A stretch of 64,000 nucleotides of DNA from Haliclystus octoradiatus (taxonomy: Eukaryota; Cnidaria; Staurozoa; Stauromedusae; Haliclystidae): the NCBI GenBank assembly GCA_916610825.1, contig OU744448.1, forward strand, positions 682,001 through 746,000. The letters run 5' to 3'. The notes beneath the pieces are model-generated. The model had not been told where the DNA came from, made no database searches, and was given only the letters and a program-made list of their open reading frames with translations. Position 1 is the first letter of the stretch, and each line of letters starts with the position of its first letter. This document shows positions 113-28,695 of the stretch, in pieces. Made by a program: the position numbers and the translations under genes.

Positions 113-7473
<7,361 letters not shown>

Positions 7474-9207
7474 CTCTAATTAAATGATTAACCTTGTTGT
7501 GCGCAATTGACCGCAAAGGCGGACGGAAAAGATTCACGGTCAACCACAGCTTACGACTTGTAATTAATTAATATGTATTATATAATAATAAATAACCACA
7601 CTCAAAATATGTATTAATAACATTAAAATATAAATCTTATCTTCATTTTATTATCGGTCTTTGTATTATCAATATTTCATATATCATATATTTGAAGCTG
7701 ATTAATGTTATGGTAATAAAACGGATTTTTAATGTAGTATCTCATTGCGAATTGATTGGCTTATACTGTATTTTCCATCAAGGGAGGAACTACATTATAT
7801 AACCTCGTTGAGGGGGTCTATTGTGCCCTAGCCCCAGGCTACTTTATTGTTACTTCAAGGAACTTCACTCCGTAATGTGCTTAGGACTGTTTAGTCTGCA
7901 GTTTTCAGAATATTAGACAGCTTGCTTAACATTTATTTACATAATATTTACTAATGAATCGGACATGAAGACCACCCGACTATCTGTATTCTATGTATAC
8001 ATATCCCTGCTGTTTTAGCATTTTAATATTTTCCCTTTTTCGTTTAAATTTATACCAAATATTCAGTCAATTTTTGAAATCATTTTGACTTGACTAATGT
8101 CGCGTGATTGATGGAGGAAATGAATCCAGCAATCAGATTGTATGTGCTAATTTGTTGAGCATAACTAGATCTATCCTCGTCCGCCGGATTCTAGATCAAG
8201 ATGATTCGAACGTGTGGTAATTATGGCAATCAGATCAAAAGATTCACACACAATGATTTTGCTTTTTCATGCAATGCGTCAAAAGAGAGTTATATCAGTT
8301 TAGTTATTGTTGGGATTCAAGCAAACTCTTTTCTATAAAAAAATAAATAAAAGCTGGGACGTATCAGGCAGTCTGTTAACCATCTAAAGAGTTCTGTAAA
8401 TTCAACTGAATGGCAAACAGATGGTATACAACAAAAATCAATTTCATTTTCTATAATAAAAACTCATGAGAATGCAATCGCTATGATAAAATCAGCGATC
8501 CTTTTATAATTGGACGTATCTTATACAATTATATTTTACACGCCATGCCGAGAGTAACAAATGATATCAAATGTTTATCCTATAACGTAAATTACTCATT
8601 AGAATACACACAATTAAGATAATTTCAATCGTGTTTTGTTTCCCTTTGAACATCGTGCTGTTGATATACTTTTAAATGCGTCACTTTCTTTCAATCATTC
8701 TAGCACTTCCCCTTCATAGATTTGCTAAATAAATGAAACATTCGCATTGTTTATTGTTACTTTTAACTACACACTTTCATTATTTGCTTTGTTGAATCCC
8801 TTTTGAAAAAGTTACTCTCAAAACTGCATTTGTACTATTATACTAACTTTAAATATTTGAGAGTTACTATTTTTAAACTCAACAATACAATGCCATAATA
8901 TTTACCCAGCCATTATTCGTGTCCCTCGATATCAATTCTGGTATTTCGGTTCCAACAATGTCCTCCGTTTGAAAGTGAAAAGACGGTGATCTAGATAATT
9001 GTATATTACAGACTCAAGACGCAAAAGAGTTTAAAGGATTTACTTATTATTTATTTAAAACGTTTCAAATTTTCAAAACATTTGCATTTATAATACATTG
9101 GTCAATTGCGTATTGTATTCGCAACAGCCCTGTTAGTTTTCTTATTTACATATATAATTTATTTGTGTATTTCCCTTGAAGCTCTGTTCAATATAATAAT
9201 TTATCTT
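7474..9207. other. Intergenic, GCNA 3' UTR then no recognised feature
   Basis: Holds the probable GCNA 3' UTR with AATAAA at 7587-7592. I see no coding exon, RNA gene or clear repeat beyond that. The tryptophanase stop lies at the right edge, so the two genes are convergent. Confidence 0.6.
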
Positions 9208-10959
9208 TTAAATGTTAATAATCTCAATTGTTTTGTTTTTTTCGTCCATCTTTTTATCCGCGATACTTGCGACGTTGTTTGCATTTGCATCTGTTGTTAA
9301 ACCGCATGAGCTAAATGAACGCGATTTCGTTACCCATGATGATTGTAGGGGAGCGAATTTGGCCGTAAAATGTCGTAAACATTTCGGTGCGTTGGTGATA
9401 GTTAGACCGGTTAGGAGATGAGCTTTGGTTGCGACACGGCGGATGACATCGATCGTATAATCGATATGTTCTTTTGCGTAAACGCGACGAGGAATTGCCA
9501 AGCGAACGAGTTCCATGCATGCGGCTGCCTCCACTCCGTTGCTCTGTTGGCCGAACATTACAGAACCGATTTCTACAGAACGGATACCACCTTCGATGTA
9601 CAATGCCACCCCGAGCGCTTGCCCTGGATAAAATAATAAAAGAGACTATAAAATGTGAACAGGGGGAAACGATGATTGCTACGCGGTAGTAATAATTAGG
9701 GCGGGGTTATGTACCTGGATATTGCAACGGTGGTATGTGAGGTAATAACTTTCCAGCGTCAATGTACACTGCATGCCCTCCGAACGGAAGAACGAGCGGT
9801 ATCCCTGCCTTCTTCAATGCTTCACCCATGTATTGAACCTGACCGACTCTATCAGCCAGATAGCTATGAGTTACGACCTCTTTCAAACCAATTGCAATAA
9901 CGTCTAGATCACGGCCTGACATTCCGCCGTACGTTTTATAACCCTCTGTCAATATGAGGTTGGTTGTACACGCATCTGCTAATTCGTCATCGTTTAATGC
10001 CAACCAACCACCGATGTGTGAGAGACCATCTTTCTTGGCACTCATTGTCATACCATCTATCAATGATGCCATTTCGCTGACAATTTCTTTGACTGTCTTA
10101 TGACGATAGCCGACCTCTCGTTCTCTGATAAACCAGGCATTCTCTGCAAATCTAAAACACATCGGAAATATTCAATTACTACAAGGAAAGTTAGAAGCTA
10201 CATATCTGCAGTATAAAAACAATCTGTGGTCTGCTATTATATATGTATGTATGATGATAGAAGACTGTCATAGCTACAATGTTATGTTTGTTTGACTAGT
10301 CAATAATTACCTGCACGCGTCAATGAACAGTGGCTTCTTATATGCTTTGCAGACGGCTTTCACTTTGTACATGTTTTCCAGACTAACAGGTTGGCCCCCT
10401 CCTGAGTTGTTTGTCACGGTTAACATCACCAATGGTACTTTACTGCCTTCTTTCTCTAACAATCTTTCTAATGCTTCAAAGTCCATGTTGCCTTTGAATG
10501 GATGGATGAATTGTGGTCTTCTGGCTTCTTTGATGGGGATATCCAATGCCGTTGCACCAGTTACCTCAATGTTGCCACGTGTTGTATCAAAATGCATGTT
10601 GTTAGGTATGATCAAACCAGGTCCTGCTACTGCTTGGAATAGAATTCTTTCAGCTGCTCTGCCTTGGTGACATGGAATAATGTGTTTCAATGGAAATAGT
10701 TCCTTCACTGCCGCCTCGAAGCGCCACCAGCTTTTTGACCCTGAGTAACTTTCATCGCCTGATAACAGAGCAGATGTCTGAGCTGCCGATAGTGCGCCGG
10801 TTCCCGAATCCGTCAGCATGTCAATCACCACATCTTCTGAACGAACATCGAATAGATTGTAGTTGGCTTTCTTTACCATCCGTAGTCGTTGTTCTTCTGT
10901 CGTTTGTTTGATTGGCTCAACCGTTTTGATCTTGTAAGCAGGAATCATCTTGTGGCGTC
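9208..10959 (-). CDS. Tryptophanase-like beta-eliminating lyase (PLP enzyme), three coding exons
   Basis: Coding exons 10948-10311, 10151-9715 and 9623-9208 give about 496 residues. A spliced 5' leader starts at 10959, 11 bases before the ATG, so a non-coding upstream exon is likely. The protein follows bacterial tryptophanase/tyrosine phenol-lyase end to end: LTDSGTGA near residue 46, HQGR before residue 100, FDTTRG, NSGGGQPVS, the PLP-lysine motif MSAKKD, YGGMSGRD, GGHAVYIDAGKLLPH and LRHFTAKF. Known chemistry: cleavage of L-tryptophan to indole, pyruvate and ammonia. The Asp in FDTT matches tryptophanase rather than the Thr of tyrosine phenol-lyase, and the arginine I expect for phenol-lyase before ELVRL is an Ala; this favours tryptophanase. 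About 47 extra C-terminal residues follow the family's normal end. No mitochondrial or secretory signal is evident. Confidence 0.92.
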
Positions 10960-12529
10960 CTAAAGGAAATATATCTTGTGTACTGTTGCAATGAGGTTGT
11001 TTCTTTGCGTTGATGTACAGACAGACTGATACGGTCTATCATTCACCTCTCTTTTATACGGGCTCTAAACAATAGATATCCTAATGAATTGTATGTCAAC
11101 GTCCGTCTATATTCTTTTGAGATATTGATTGGCAGTAGCTTTGAACAGATAGATATTCAAATAGGTTTCAGGGGGTACAGATGTTACTGCAACATGCTGA
11201 GGTTTTATTATCTCGAATTGTGTTGTCGGCGTATAAACAGAATGCTCCTAGGTAGCGAAACTTCCTTACAATTTCTTCTCTATTTGATCGTACATCCCAA
11301 TAAAAGAGAGCCGACCGGTGATAAGCTTTCTCTCTCAACTTTCATTTGATGTCATGGTTACAGTGCAGATACATTCATCGGTAGGTGGCGTGGTTTACGT
11401 AATATTTAATTTGCGTCATTTTATTCGGAATTTATATCAAGTTGAGCGGTTAGGGTGGTCGGTGACCTGAACCGCTTTCAATTGCCTAATTGTATGTCAA
11501 CCATTAAACTAAAGAGAGAGTTGACGCAAATTCGAAAATGGTTAAACTCATTTATTAGACATATTTCAACACAATTGCATGGAATAGAACTATTAAAAAA
11601 GATGTCTCATGACATATAACATAGACAACATCCTGGTCGGCTGTACGAATAGTCATTCTCATTCAAAAAAGGGCGTTGCTTACTCATGCGTGATGTGTGG
11701 GATCTATATGGGGAGAGGATGTCACTGAAACTGAATGGGGGTCATATGGATGACGTCACAACTATATCATTACGATCTCACGTCTTAATTGGTTTAACAG
11801 TTGCTTTAGTCAGCACAACACTATCAACAGAATAATACCAAAAGGATTTAATGCGCAATTAACAGCTTAAGAAACATTATCATTATATTATTGTGGTGGT
11901 TACTAAGAAGACACAACGAAATGCTTGTATATCATTCTATTGTCACGTGGTTTCATATGCTTTTGTATAAGATCAACGTGTTTATCAACTATGAATTATT
12001 TTTAGTTTTTAAATCAATGCAGCGAAGCAATTATTTTGCAAAGATAGTCTGTTGATTGTCATTCAAAACATGAAATGTCACGTATACGCCACGTGAGAAT
12101 ATCGTGTTATATTTTTATATTTCATGTACTAAAATGTACCATCAATTATGACAACCAGACTATTTGTGATCAGTTGCCAATCAAATATCCTCTACTCAGA
12201 CTGTCTATAATTTAGTAAAGTTAATTAACAGCAGTAGAAAACTTGATTGTCTCGTTGGGGTAATAATAGATTAATCTATTTTCATCGTATCTATATAATC
12301 ATCTATTGTAATCCATTAGAATCGACATTATATTTAGTTTGTATATGTAGCATCAAGATAGCTGATTAATTAACGATGGATAATGATCGATCATCTTGTT
12401 TCGTTTGTTCAATTATAACCATTACGGCATATGTTGGCTGCATTAGTTATATAACTCAAGGCGGTCGGGTACATTGTATACAAACGTTTTTTATAAAAAA
12501 GTTAAGTTTGACTATAGCACGCTCTTTGA

Positions 12530-13688: not shown

Positions 13689-15586
13689 GGAACGAGCATG
13701 CTTGAATTTGATTTTGTGTTCCCGGGAAAGCTGATTGAATGTCATATTCTGTTCCAGACGCCAAGCCAATAAAGTTGACTAAGCATCAGTCAAACAGGGG
13801 ATAGTCAACTAAAATCCCAGATCAAAACTATAGATCCTATTACGTCATCATTGCTCCGTCATTCTTCCGGCATGGATTCTTCCGCCGACCGATCATGATG
13901 GTCTCCTTCTGATCTAGATAATGCAGGAAGCTAGGAGGGTCGTACAGAGGGGGTCCTGGGATGAATCACCAAACAATAAGGTAGTCCTGAATCATGATTC
14001 GATTGCGATGCGCCAGACCACTTTGAATGGGGATCCTATTTAGACGGTCAAGAAAAAATTGGATTTCAAATTTGAGATTGAACAAATTTGTTAACCCTTT
14101 TTCTGAAAATAAGATGGCTTATCTCCTGTAAATTCTTTGGCCAATTTTACGTGTACAAATCCAAAATTTTGATTTTAGAATGATTTTGATTCATGTTCTG
14201 TGATATCGATGAGATAATTACATAATAGATTTTGTTTACGTGTTGGTTGCAATTTATTGATGGAAACCAGCTTCACTGAAATGATATATACGGTCAAATT
14301 CATAAGTGCCATAATAGAACAATCACACAAGCAGCAATGTACCCACTGTAACAAAACTTTGAATGAATGGAAATGCGGACATTATTTAAGATTTGAAAGG
14401 ATCTGGTTATCTGTTTGATTTGCTATAGCTCGTTACAATCTGATTTACTGCTACTCTCGATTCTTCAATGCGTAAACTATATGTGCTTCTTCGCACGTAC
14501 TTTATTACATGAAATCTAGATGATGGACTATAGTCCTATAATAGACATTGTCATAGTTCTGTTACGTTGCATCACATAATGAGGCCTCAAACACAACAAC
14601 TTTATATGGCATATGCGGCTATATCAAATAAACCTGCTTAATATAATCTGAGTCCAACACCTCTAGATTCCAGGACAAATGTTTTATAGGCCTAATTTCA
14701 ACAACAAATTAATGTTGAAATGTTGTAGTTTTTCAGGAAGCTAACCCTTTTGTCAGACCTTGTATGCCGCACCCCCGTCAAGAGCTGTTTTAATGTCATA
14801 AAACTAACTTATCAGAAGTCAGTAACGTTTACTGGTGTATACAACTAATGGTATCAAAGAACAATACAGTCTGAAATCATCTATTGAGTTTCATTGTCAT
14901 TTTAATCACAGTCTGAGAACATCTTGACAGGGTGGCATAGATTACATCTCCTTTTAATCGCAACAAAGACCGTCTGTACATCCAATTAAGCCTACGCTTA
15001 ATTAATTAATCAGTAGGTACTTAATTGATCTACTCTACCTGAACGTGGGAGGCATCATAACATATTACATATATAGCTGTGGACATTCCATTATATATTT
15101 TCATTATATTACAGTATCACTTGTTTATATCTACTGTAGATTATATCACTATAATCATCAGTACTGCTCAGGAACGAAGAACTGACTAATTCGATATCAA
15201 CATTATTTGAATAAGTATAAAATATCTTCACTTTAAAAATATTCCCACTTCTGGCTAGGCATATAAAGGGTCTTATAAAGCAAATAGTTTTGAGATGTTC
15301 CAAGTTCTCAGAATATCGCAACTGCATAGTCGAGCGATGCATCTCGGTAGAGCGGAGTAGCCCTATATGACAGCAAAATTCAGTGGCAACAGTTTTCTAA
15401 TTTTTTATTCATGCTCAACGTTTTGGATAGGTTGTCTTCGGCATTCATTTTCAAGAGTAAAAAGATCAATTTCTGCTTTCTAGGCTATTCCAAAATGTTC
15501 TACCATTATTTCATGATTTCGCGGGTAACCTCGCATTGAGTAATATTCGAAAGGAAGAGAGCAATATTTTTGGATTTGCACCAAAA

Positions 15587-21318
<5,732 letters not shown>

Positions 21319-24611: not shown

Positions 24612-25742
24612 TTATATTGTTGCTTGTGATAATACAGATCGAGCTAATGTACTGCCCGATGTTGATATCGGCTTATTATAAAATTTAGCGAAGGTTTTTG
24701 AGTTAGTCCATCCTGCACTATTCAATATCTCCCCTATTGGGGTTCCTCCTTTAGAGGCTGCTGACGTAGCAGCAGAACGCGTGCTATGCGCTTTAAAAAT
24801 AGATGTATCTATGCCAGATAATTGTAAACAATTTTTGATCCATCTAGCAATTGTATCACATGTTACCGGTTTATACGGTTTGATTAAACTAATCAATAAC
24901 TGTTTGTGGTTGCCTCGCAGTTTTTCAGTAATTAATAGATACTGCTTTAGGCACATCATAACATCTAGCGCTGGATTATCATGATAGGCTTTAAATTCAA
25001 TCGTACCTACATGATGCAAAGGCCGCGATGTCTTCAGTAAAGAAGATATCGTAAAAATGCATTGATTGTTATCTATAGACATTTCATTAATACACAAGGC
25101 CTGCAAAGTTTGACAGCGCTGACCAGATAGTAATGCCATCAACATAACAGTCTTCATAGTCAATTGCTGATGAGTTAATAGCTCAACTGATGGAATACCA
25201 GCAAGATAGTTCAGCACTAAACTTACATCCCAAATATGAGTGTATCTAGGTAGAGTAGGTCTGATGTTAAATACTCCTTTCATAAACCTAGTTACCATTG
25301 GATGGGAACCAAATGATCCCAATTGATTAGGTAAAATAATAATCAATGATAATGTACTACGGGCAGTGTTAATGGCACTATAGCCTAACCCCGAATCAAA
25401 TAACTCAGCCAAAAAGTTTATACCATGTTCCAGAGCAATGTCATTGGATTTAATAGCATTTTGTTCACAATATTTTCGCCATTTAGGCAAAGTAGTAGCG
25501 TATTGTCTCTTAGTAGATGACTTCCAGGAAGATTTCAATACTTTGGTTGCCACTTCAGAGAACCGATTGTATGTGTTCCCCTCCCCGACACAGAGCAAAG
25601 TAACAAGACTAGCTTCTTGCTCAGCGGGTGCCGCTCCAGTGGTTTTTGGGGTAACTGCAGAGTCTGCTCCCCCGTTGGTAAACTCACTGGGCACTTCTCC
25701 AACATCTGCAACAGCTTCGGCCACCACGGCTGAGTCGGCCAT
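24612..25742 (-). CDS. DIRS tyrosine recombinase
   Basis: Open frame of 376 residues. A SAM-like N-terminal core-binding region includes STKRQYATTLPKWRKYC (about 76-92). The catalytic domain shows the first Arg in LLSGQRCQTLQ, the H-x-x-R box as HSTRSAA and the nucleophile Tyr in KFYNKP. It integrates the circular DNA intermediate by site-specific recombination. The N-terminal region overlaps the end of the RT/RNase H frame by about 200 bases; the true start may lie anywhere in that overlap, possibly reached by reinitiation or frameshift. Confidence 0.9.
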   Translation of the reverse strand: MADSAVVAEAVADVGEVPSEFTNGGADSAVTPKTTGAAPAEQEASLVTLLCVGEGNTYNRFSEVATKVLKSSWKSSTKRQYATTLPKWRKYCEQNAIKSNDIALEHGINFLAELFDSGLGYSAINTARSTLSLIIILPNQLGSFGSHPMVTRFMKGVFNIRPTLPRYTHIWDVSLVLNYLAGIPSVELLTHQQLTMKTVMLMALLSGQRCQTLQALCINEMSIDNNQCIFTISSLLKTSRPLHHVGTIEFKAYHDNPALDVMMCLKQYLLITEKLRGNHKQLLISLIKPYKPVTCDTIARWIKNCLQLSGIDTSIFKAHSTRSAATSAASKGGTPIGEILNSAGWTNSKTFAKFYNKPISTSGSTLARSVLSQATI

Positions 25743-27619
25743 TGTGGTACTACAAGTAGGCCTGCTGCGCGGTCGGTTGAAATCTTCTGTAATACTTTTG
25801 TTATAATGCTAAATGGAGGAAACGCATAAAAGTTCAATTCACTCCAATTTAAATGAAATGCATTAACAGCCCAGGCATCTGGGTCAGGCCTGTATGAGAC
25901 ATAGCAATCTAATTGTTTGTTCAACCTTGATGCAAATAAATCAATTTCCGGTTGAACCTCAATATCCTTAACAGCTTTGCTGAACATTAAAGGATCAAGT
26001 CGCCATTCAGATGATACGTGTTTTTGGCGAGACTCTGCATCAGCAGTAACATTAAGCACTCCGGGAATACGTGCAACTGTGATCCAAATATCCCGAGCAA
26101 TACACCATTGCCATATATTTCTAGCTAAAGTGTCAAGTTTAATAGAATGACAAGTTCCCATGTGATTAATTACTGATTCCGCAGTAGTATTGTCTACTAA
26201 GACTTTAACATGTAAACCTCTAACAGTAGTTTCAAAAGCACGTAATGATAGCCAAACCGCAAACGTTTCCAAATAGTTTATATGCTCCTTAGCCTCGTCT
26301 GATGACCAATGGCCACCAGTAGAGTCAGTAGATGTGCTATTAATTGAACAACCCCAGCCTGTGTTCGAGGCATCAGTTGTCATATTTATATTAGGAGAGG
26401 GGTATGATATAGGCTTATAAGATGTAGTTATTGAAGTGGCCCACCAATCGAGCTCACCTAAAGCCCCATCTGATAAAGTCATATTCCCTTCATAGTTGCC
26501 ATGGCAACGTTTCAATGCATTGGCTTTGTCTGCTTCTAAACGACGGTAATACAAAGGGCCCCATCTAGCACCAGGGAATGTAGAAACTAGTTGACCAATC
26601 ACCTTGGCAACATCCCTCACTGTTGGTTTATGCGATTTAGATAATGACTGACATGATTTAATAATTGCATTTGCTTTTTCACTAGTGAGACGGACTTGCA
26701 TTGTTGTAGAGTCAATAATAAATCCTAAATACGTTATTGACTGTGTTGGAAGAAACACTGATTTTTTAGGATGTACAACAAACCCTAAAGAATCCATTAA
26801 ATGGACCGTATCGATCACATTGTTAGCACATTGTTCATACGTTTCTCCCATTAATATTGAGTCATCAATGTAAGTTGATGATAAATGACCCTGTTTTCTT
26901 AATGTTGAGAATACAGGCTTCATTAACTTCGTAAATAGGCGTGGGCCTGGTGAAAGTCCATTAGGTAAACAAACATACTGGTACAATTGATTTTTCCATA
27001 AAAATTTTAAGTACTTTTTATTATTATCTGCAACTGGTACAGAATAATAGGCATCTTTTAAATCAATAGATGCGAAATAACAATTAGGAGTCACCAATTG
27101 AATAGCAGTAGAAATGTGCTCCATTTTAAAATGTTTGTAATTAACGCATTGATTAAACCGTTTTAAATTCAAAATTAATCTATATGTGCCATCTTTCTTA
27201 GCCCTCAAAAATATAGGCGAAATAAATTGTTGCGGGTCAGGCAAACTCAGTTCAATAACCCCTTTAGCTAATAACTTATCAATTTCTGATTGAACTAAAG
27301 CTTTTTCATGCTCTAAAATTGAGCTAGAACGAGGCAAACAAGACAAAGGCACGCAAGTTAAATCAATATGTAATCCCTGAATAAGATCAATGATCTCAGG
27401 GTCGGATGTTAAAGATAGCCACTTTGGTAAATAATTATGCAAACGGCCACCTTTAAATTGTAAAGCTTTAAGGTTGAGAACATTACAAAGTTCAATGATA
27501 TTATCATTCAAAGAATTTACCTCTAAAAATGGCAAACCAGCTATTTCTCTTTGTCCTGTGAACTTCTGTCCCGTTTTTGATAACGATTCGTCTGAGACAT
27601 CTTCCCAGGATTTTTCCAT
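25535..27619 (-). CDS. DIRS reverse transcriptase-RNase H polyprotein
   Basis: Open frame of 694 residues. RT motifs: KDGTYRLILNLKRFN, ASIDLKDAYYSVPV, LPNGLSPGPRLFTK and the catalytic YIDDS. RNase H follows (MTTDASNTGWG, NYLETFAVWLSLR, VDNTTAE, NVTADAESR). After it comes a DIRS/Ngaro-type stretch, EIDLFASRLNKQLDCYVSYR. It makes the cDNA of the element from its RNA. It overlaps the gag-like frame by 79 bases at its start and the recombinase at its end. No methyltransferase-like domain is seen. No stop or frameshift is seen. Confidence 0.93.
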   Translation of the reverse strand: MEKSWEDVSDESLSKTGQKFTGQREIAGLPFLEVNSLNDNIIELCNVLNLKALQFKGGRLHNYLPKWLSLTSDPEIIDLIQGLHIDLTCVPLSCLPRSSSILEHEKALVQSEIDKLLAKGVIELSLPDPQQFISPIFLRAKKDGTYRLILNLKRFNQCVNYKHFKMEHISTAIQLVTPNCYFASIDLKDAYYSVPVADNNKKYLKFLWKNQLYQYVCLPNGLSPGPRLFTKLMKPVFSTLRKQGHLSSTYIDDSILMGETYEQCANNVIDTVHLMDSLGFVVHPKKSVFLPTQSITYLGFIIDSTTMQVRLTSEKANAIIKSCQSLSKSHKPTVRDVAKVIGQLVSTFPGARWGPLYYRRLEADKANALKRCHGNYEGNMTLSDGALGELDWWATSITTSYKPISYPSPNINMTTDASNTGWGCSINSTSTDSTGGHWSSDEAKEHINYLETFAVWLSLRAFETTVRGLHVKVLVDNTTAESVINHMGTCHSIKLDTLARNIWQWCIARDIWITVARIPGVLNVTADAESRQKHVSSEWRLDPLMFSKAVKDIEVQPEIDLFASRLNKQLDCYVSYRPDPDAWAVNAFHLNWSELNFYAFPPFSIITKVLQKISTDRAAGLLVVPQWPTQPWWPKLLQMLEKCPVSLPTGEQTLQLPQKPLERHPLSKKLVLLLCSVSGRGTHTIGSLKWQPKY

Positions 27620-28596
27620 TTGCGGTGGCCCTGCCAGTTTAAAGACTTATTGTAATTATTATATTGCTGCTTTTTGAAGGGTTTGCTCGAGTCGAACTTC
27701 CCACGTTTACTGGCATTGAAGGCAGGCTCACCAGAAATGTCTTTACTAAGGCGATTCGCCGTGCGTATGCGACCCATTTCTGCTGGTAGATCATCACCAA
27801 ATAAAAACCCCGAGTCGGGATAATCAGAGCTGGCCAAAGCTTTAAATTCTTTGGGAAGCTCTGGGGCAATAGCATCTCTGCGACGGGCTGACACTTCGTT
27901 CACCATATGCCCCATAAATGCCAAAGCATCAACATTTGCAGAAACGAGTGCATTGTAAGTTGGAACCAAAAGTTTACTCTGCGAGTCGCGTAATTTGGTT
28001 AATTCCTCAGTGTTGTATATCATGGCAGAACTAGTGGCAATGAGTTCTTTTTGGACATTAGCGAGTCGCAAGTCCGTTTGCCTAACTGTGCGAGACATAA
28101 ATGACCATATCTCCGGGTTAACACGTCGCACAGTTAAACGTGGGCAATTTTCTGGCCTGACATACTTTGACAGTTTGTCTTTCAGTTTAACTTCTTTTAA
28201 AGGCTTTGCCCATAACTGCTCCACAACAGCTGCCAATTCTGTTCCCACTGCTGGTCCGAGAACCTCTTCATCTACTAAATCGGCGGCAAGTTCTTTTAAA
28301 AAACCATCATCAGTGGACTCAGCTGTAGTTGTTCCCATGAGGCGATCAGCCGGTTCATCACTACCATCACCGTCACCATCATTGGCTTCATCGACCATAC
28401 TGTCATCCTCATTTCGGATTTTCTTGGGCGGCGGTGATGAGTCATCACTGCGGCTTATCAATCCAGAAATGGACATATTCATCGTTTGAACGGATGAATT
28501 TAATGTTTGTAACATTTGACCAATACCTGTTAGAGTATTAGTCAATGTAACAGGTGCTGTGTCAGCACCAACAGATTCTTCTTCTATTAAAGACAT
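27541..28596 (-). CDS. DIRS gag-like ORF1
   Basis: Open frame of 351 residues from an ATG about 100 bases inside the right ITR. It has an acidic, Asp/Ser-rich first third, a helical middle (EELTKLRDSQSKLLVPTYNA, NEVSARRRDAIAPELPKEF) and a basic, Asn/Lys/Gln-rich C-terminus likely to bind RNA. No zinc knuckle is present. The assignment rests on position, overlap with the RT frame and composition rather than on a conserved motif. Confidence 0.78.
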   Translation of the reverse strand: MSLIEEESVGADTAPVTLTNTLTGIGQMLQTLNSSVQTMNMSISGLISRSDDSSPPPKKIRNEDDSMVDEANDGDGDGSDEPADRLMGTTTAESTDDGFLKELAADLVDEEVLGPAVGTELAAVVEQLWAKPLKEVKLKDKLSKYVRPENCPRLTVRRVNPEIWSFMSRTVRQTDLRLANVQKELIATSSAMIYNTEELTKLRDSQSKLLVPTYNALVSANVDALAFMGHMVNEVSARRRDAIAPELPKEFKALASSDYPDSGFLFGDDLPAEMGRIRTANRLSKDISGEPAFNASKRGKFDSSKPFKKQQYNNYNKSLNWQGHRKWKNPGKMSQTNRYQKRDRSSQDKEK

Positions 28597-28695
28597 GTTT
28601 GAATAATAATAATAATAAAGTTACTCAAGAGTAAAATTAAAGACCGATCACACTTAAGATAAATGTGCAACTGATTATTACAGAGATATGTGCAC

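Follow-up and report, generated by a model that had tools for sequence, protein, structure and literature searches.

A three-exon tryptophanase-family gene of the stalked jellyfish Haliclystus octoradiatus, probably acquired by an old bacterial transfer

Gene model and chromosomal setting

The window, i.e., the whole stretch of 64,000 nucleotides that was analysed, spans positions 682001-746000 of a Haliclystus octoradiatus contig of 35,873,919 bases (C4). ORF and splice-site analysis places on its minus strand a tryptophanase-family gene with three exons and a 496-residue product, in agreement with the initial annotation, which had described three exons joined at GT-AG junctions and had named no strand. 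The gene's features and those of its surroundings are presented in Table 1. Regarding the extent first proposed for the gene (9208..10959), the 3' end was retained and the 5' end was not: a possible AG acceptor ends just ahead of position 10959, and the coding sequence starts 11 bases later, with the ATG at 10948. Similarly, the C-terminal extension is present, and its length was corrected from about 47 to about 44-45 residues (452/453-496).

Table 1. Features of the tryptophanase-family gene and of the surrounding window.
Feature	Position	Strand	Details and basis
Possible core promoter	11024..11058	minus	TATAAA from 11058 and TCAGTC from 11029; consensus match only
Coding exon 1	10311..10948	minus	638 nt; ATG 10948-10946; residues 1-213, codon 213 split 2/1; homology over exon (PDB search)
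Intron 1	10152..10310	minus	159 nt; GT-AG; phase 2; GC 30%; GTAATTAT...TTTTAG
Coding exon 2	9715..10151	minus	437 nt; carries PLP lysine K253 in MSAKKD
Intron 2	9624..9714	minus	91 nt; GT-AG; phase 1, in codon 359; GC 38.5%; GTACATAA...ATCCAG
Coding exon 3	9208..9623	minus	416 nt including stop 9210-9208; V375, I377, R399, H443 and C-terminal extension
C-terminal extension codons	9211..9345	minus	about residues 452-496; no PDB match
Possible polyadenylation signal	9158..9163	minus	AATAAA, 45 nt past stop codon; consensus match only
UbiA-family exon	15461-16150		Pfam scan
Retroelement	24612-28620	minus	reverse transcriptase and tyrosine recombinase; ORF list and Pfam scan
CFAP97-like exon	38540		Pfam scan
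Two rhodopsin-type GPCRs	58162, 61476		Pfam scan

Of the combinations of GT and AG sites tried near both junctions, six left the reading frame open over more than 450 residues. The combination 10310/10152 with 9714/9624 was chosen because it alone, of the six, retains both R213 and Q360. The codon at the intron 1 junction restores R213, which is invariant in both alignments considered (A1 and A2), while Q360 is invariant in the four-row alignment A1 and not in A2. The intron 2 acceptor at 9624 retains G359-Q360, which an alternative AG located 6 nt further in does not. Under this model both predicted introns would be spliced. Exon GC is 45-46%, compared with 30% and 38.5% in the introns.

Upstream of the gene, 31 nt separate the first T of TATAAA from the A of the initiator-like TCAGTC motif. 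Given that these two motifs lie close 5' of the ATG, it is plausible that the gene needs no upstream exon and that its promoter lies just 5' of the start codon. If transcription began earlier, an ATG at 11042 would be upstream in the transcript.

A Pfam scan was applied to ten proteins of the window. Apart from the tryptophanase, seven of the nine presented matches (two GPCRs, CFAP97, UbiA, reverse transcriptase, tyrosine recombinase and GIY-YIG) and two presented none, and no bacterial operon-like neighbour was found among these nine ORFs. We take the UbiA-family exon to be COQ2, and the retroelement is presumably DIRS-like. When the whole genome (261,861,806 bases in 33 contigs) was searched exon by exon with PF01212, this being the one family on which the count is based, the locus in the window was the only match. 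In terms of composition, the GC3 of the gene (0.43) falls among the values for four neighbouring exons (0.30-0.45), and its overall coding GC (45%) is above theirs (35-43%). Composition is therefore no evidence of a foreign gene, and no proof of a settled one either.

The initial annotation had argued from introns and eukaryotic neighbours against bacterial contamination, and the 35.87 Mb contig, the GPCRs, the CFAP97-like gene and the retroelements bear this out. Because of its introns, the animal chromosome on which it lies and its neighbours, the reading of the gene as an animal nuclear host gene is supported. Although the protein looks bacterial within an animal assembly, as contamination or an assembly chimera would have it, we give such an origin next to no credence: two introns interrupt conserved blocks, most of the scanned neighbours carry Pfam matches with nothing operon-like among them, the assembly is described as chromosome-scale (262 Mb in 33 scaffolds, from 68-fold HiFi and Hi-C data; PMC9975415), the best bacterial identity among the matches listed is only about 63%, and a tryptophanase is named in Nematostella as well (PMC5015328). 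The same genome description gives chromosome 3 as 35.87 Mb at 33.7% GC, and the mitochondrial genome as 18.3 kb at 38.3% GC, and names a poly-A RNA-seq set, ERR9434978 (PMC9975415).

Simple repeats occupy three further parts of the window: (AAT)n and (ATA)n separated by a 259-base duplication (348-1557), a 46-base unit repeated 25 times (1984-3131), and (TTTA)93 (6766-7138). Just left of the window, a retroelement frame on the minus strand (L103:2501-4756) presents weak RVT, RNase H and rve matches. In the mitochondrial contig (C33; 18,316 bases, 38.3% GC), cox1 lies on the minus strand with eight internal TGA codons; of the other long frames recognised by eye as mitochondrial genes, most lie on the plus strand. 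ARAGORN reported two tRNAs only, one with anticodon TCA and one Met; the former, SeC by the bacterial code, would thus be Trp in the mitochondrion. Medusozoan mitochondrial genomes typically have such a layout with two tRNAs. A scyphozoan mitogenome has likewise been described with two tRNAs.

Family membership and specificity residues

The 496-residue protein matches PF01212 with an E-value of 2.9e-72 and 243.9 bits (gathering score 27), and the NCBIfam tryptophanase subfamily NF009709 with 641.1 bits (cut-off 285). Its best PDB match is a tryptophanase, with an E-value of 1e-127, and among solved structures 8sij (Tryptophanase 1) and 8sbg (Tryptophanase) match best. These matches uphold the initial description of a full-length protein of the beta-eliminating lyase family; the PLP lysine in its SAKKD motif is K253. 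The constant active-site residues of E. coli tryptophanase, Y74, R103, K270 and R419, are all present as Y68, R97, K253 and R399. We assume that Y68, R97 and R399 have the catalytic roles of their equivalents, R399 being the carboxylate binder. Lys270 is the PLP lysine of the E. coli enzyme.

Of the 129 columns with a constancy of 97% or more across 86 subfamily rows, the window protein keeps 119 and changes ten, as would be expected of a working enzyme. A decaying or silent gene is very unlikely in light of this conservation, of the intact frame of 496 codons, and of promoter and poly-A signals that are plausible as consensus matches.

In comparison with the equivalog models, the window protein presents scores below the cut-offs for TnaA (456.6 against 825.8 in TIGR02617, and 520.7 against 750 in NF053783) and for tyrosine phenol-lyase (489.2 against 720.7 in TIGR02618). 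The same cut-offs were missed by all six relatives tested other than E. coli, namely those from Rhodobacter capsulatus (L088), a Chloroflexi bin (L011), an Acidimicrobiaceae bin (L014), Limnohabitans (L002), Streptomyces (L005) and a viral contig (L092); E. coli passes TIGR02617 only. Hence, the failure describes the subfamily and not the window protein alone.

Five positions separate indole-lyases (Asp137, Phe304, Val394, Ile396, His463) from phenol-lyases (Thr124, Met288, Met379, Arg381, Phe448) (PMC5805759). At these positions the window protein has D121, Y284, V375, I377 and H443, i.e., four of the five are of the indole-lyase type and the Phe304 position is a Tyr. These residues support a tryptophanase-type rather than a phenol-lyase-type specificity. 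Tyrosine phenol-lyase (1c7g and others) belongs to the same family and is 44% identical to the window protein, yet its five specificity residues are all absent, and a phenol-lyase identity was ruled out on this basis. E. coli TnaA (b3708), with the same family and catalytic residues and about 42% identity, is on a branch separate from the window protein in the trees.

A less likely reading, though one with some weight, keeps the protein among the beta-eliminating lyases of this family but gives it another main substrate (an S-substituted cysteine, serine or a modified tryptophan), with indole not being its product. This would suit the Tyr at the Phe304 position, the long branch of the protein and its C-terminal tail, which has no equally long counterpart in the compared relatives: bacterial rows reach 0-31 residues beyond the matched core, and a PDB search with the tail gave no match at E-values up to 1. 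However, indole-lyase residues occupy the remaining four specificity positions, and Tyr at the fifth is shared with the solved tryptophanase 8sbg and with 7 of the 86 subfamily rows.

Bacterial relatives and origin of the gene

Searching the genome contigs (genome_contigs) yielded relatives of the window protein at no fewer than 587 loci. The best 80 of these at least 587 loci were kept; they are 53-62% identical to the window protein and come from Chloroflexi, Actinomycetes, Acidimicrobiaceae, Bacteroidetes, Proteobacteria, an archaeal bin and others. In a survey of 400 genomes from the phylum of one Chloroflexi bin (G003), 168 presented a match at E <= 0.001, strong and weak matches taken together. 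Ten loci fetched from this survey, which were compared pairwise and left out of the trees, are 58.9-62.7% identical to the window protein. Matches also occur in 82 plasmid records, nine of which were fetched.

Taken over the nearest 90 loci, the bacterial NF009709 subfamily (Chloroflexota, Actinomycetota, Rhodobacter capsulatus and others) aligns with the window protein over its full length at about 53-63% identity, and agrees with it in the catalytic residues and in most of the specificity residues, together with low TnaA and phenol-lyase equivalog scores in the six members tested. The window gene differs from this subfamily in its two introns, its long branch and its C-terminal tail of about 44 residues.

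Before a quick tree of 99 rows was built, two loci without a suitable frame (L060 and L098) and one of half length (L055) were excluded, and 14 further rows that were long, odd or near-duplicate were removed before a careful tree of 85 rows. The window protein is the sole animal, protist or other eukaryotic sequence among the tree rows. The quick tree places it within an otherwise prokaryotic group, with an SH-aLRT of 99 and a branch of 1.07. In the careful tree it belongs to a set of 42 rows whose other 41 members are prokaryotic (98/87), with a long branch of 1.11 changes per column, and its immediate sister group lacks support (78/32). Two alternatives were put to AU tests: keeping the window protein outside the 78 subfamily rows lowers the log-likelihood by 21.4 (p 0.232), and keeping it outside a 44-row group lowers it by 5.3 (p 0.333). 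A bacterial affinity of the protein is clear. As neither alternative was rejected, nesting inside the bacterial subfamily is favoured, not proven.

No close donor was found among the matches listed from the genome contigs and the 400-genome Chloroflexi survey, where the best bacterial identity is 62.7%, which fits an old transfer event. An ancient transfer into the animal lineage, as the initial annotation had proposed, is the best reading: the relatives found are bacterial, none is close and the best tree nests the protein among them, although the AU tests also allow a placement outside that subfamily.

Very old vertical inheritance, with early eukaryotes already carrying the gene and most lineages losing it later, would require no transfer into animals, but seems improbable by comparison. 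According to a 2021 survey (PMC8537960), tnaA has a scattered occurrence among protists, fungi and animals; its authors suggest that a eukaryotic ancestor may have passed the gene on to some of the protists, and consider the animal entries too few to show where the gene came from. The AU results would also allow such a history. On the other hand, the distribution given in that survey is patchy, and the best tree puts the window protein inside one bacterial subfamily. For Entamoeba and Trichomonas, too, tryptophanase has been named among the genes gained by transfer (PMC4053834).

As a clue to function, the flanking ORFs of 83 bacterial tryptophanase loci were clustered, with nothing informative found. 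The two largest clusters, of 14 and 6 loci, seem to represent the tryptophanase locus itself, read on its reverse strand or in an overlapping frame; all remaining clusters comprise three loci or fewer.

In one Streptomyces plasmid (L005:264-2865), the tryptophanase directly follows a gene of the tryptophan dimethylallyltransferase family, a hint that it feeds indole prenylation. Four uncultivated viral contigs (L091-L094) carry closely similar tryptophanases, 55-56% identical to the window protein, which form one tight tree group. In L092 (69-9327), the neighbours are an FTR1 permease, an inorganic pyrophosphatase, a dihydroorotate dehydrogenase, an aspartate decarboxylase, a DNA methylase and a phage peptidase family. 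The only PHROG match of the L092 tryptophanase is weak (phrog_20062, 4.7e-5), and the gene set looks like a phage metabolic gene cluster.

Predicted enzyme and its place among animal tryptophanases

Taken together, we consider it likely that the locus encodes a host enzyme of the tryptophanase group, PLP-dependent and probably cytosolic, whose gene most likely came from an old bacterial transfer and then acquired introns and a tail. The source would be the bacterial tryptophanase subfamily of Chloroflexota, Actinomycetota, Pseudomonadota and others, and the two introns and the C-terminal tail would have been gained after the transfer. In the predicted enzyme, K253 would carry PLP, R399 would bind the carboxylate, and the preference for L-tryptophan would be determined by D121, I377, V375, H443 and Y284. 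L-tryptophan would thus be converted into indole, pyruvate and ammonia. The N-terminus begins directly at the core, with no obvious targeting stretch by eye, and the reaction presumably takes place in the cytosol. We infer both this location and the substrate, and predict that the animal has its own route to indole, which may serve as a signal, as a defence or in plain catabolism.

Animal tryptophanases are already known, so the novelty implied at first was overstated. The animal table of the 2021 survey lists tnaA in two octopuses, five corals, three sea anemones, Saccoglossus, Limulus, Folsomia, Drosophila and Priapulus; 8 of its 15 species are cnidarian, from the genera Nematostella, Exaiptasia, Actinia, Acropora, Stylophora, Orbicella and Pocillopora (PMC8537960). 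Given this list, the stalked-jellyfish gene is one further animal case. The likeness to the listed genes is one of gene name, not of sequence, and unlike the host of the window gene, the species in that table include no staurozoan or other medusozoan. A Nematostella vectensis gene, v1g204932, carries the name Tryptophanase in a table of expression during regeneration (Oral, Hour 24; PMC5015328); this gene is cnidarian, from an anthozoan, and is likened to the window gene by name alone. No staurozoan or medusozoan tryptophanase was found in the literature searched for tryptophanase.

If the enzyme is active, indole, which is usually read as a bacterial message, can come from the stalked jellyfish itself, and caution is required in that indole in cnidarian holobionts would not be assignable to bacteria alone. 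Should the gene prove to be an orthologue of the anthozoan genes listed in 2021, it would span both main cnidarian branches, and the choice between one ancient gain and many gains would become directly testable. As a tentative proposal, which we regard as possible and hold with limited confidence, cnidarians might make their own indole through a single bacterial tryptophanase gained before the split of anthozoans and medusozoans and kept as an animal-controlled microbial signal or defence, with the tail serving regulation or targeting.

The idea that tryptophanase is the only route of tryptophan breakdown in this animal was considered and is not supported. On the same chromosome, at C4:7246704-7252638, three exon-like matches to tryptophan 2,3-dioxygenase are present, one of them with two internal TAA codons. 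Tryptophan breakdown therefore need not depend on tryptophanase, and entry into the kynurenine pathway is probably also available in Haliclystus octoradiatus.
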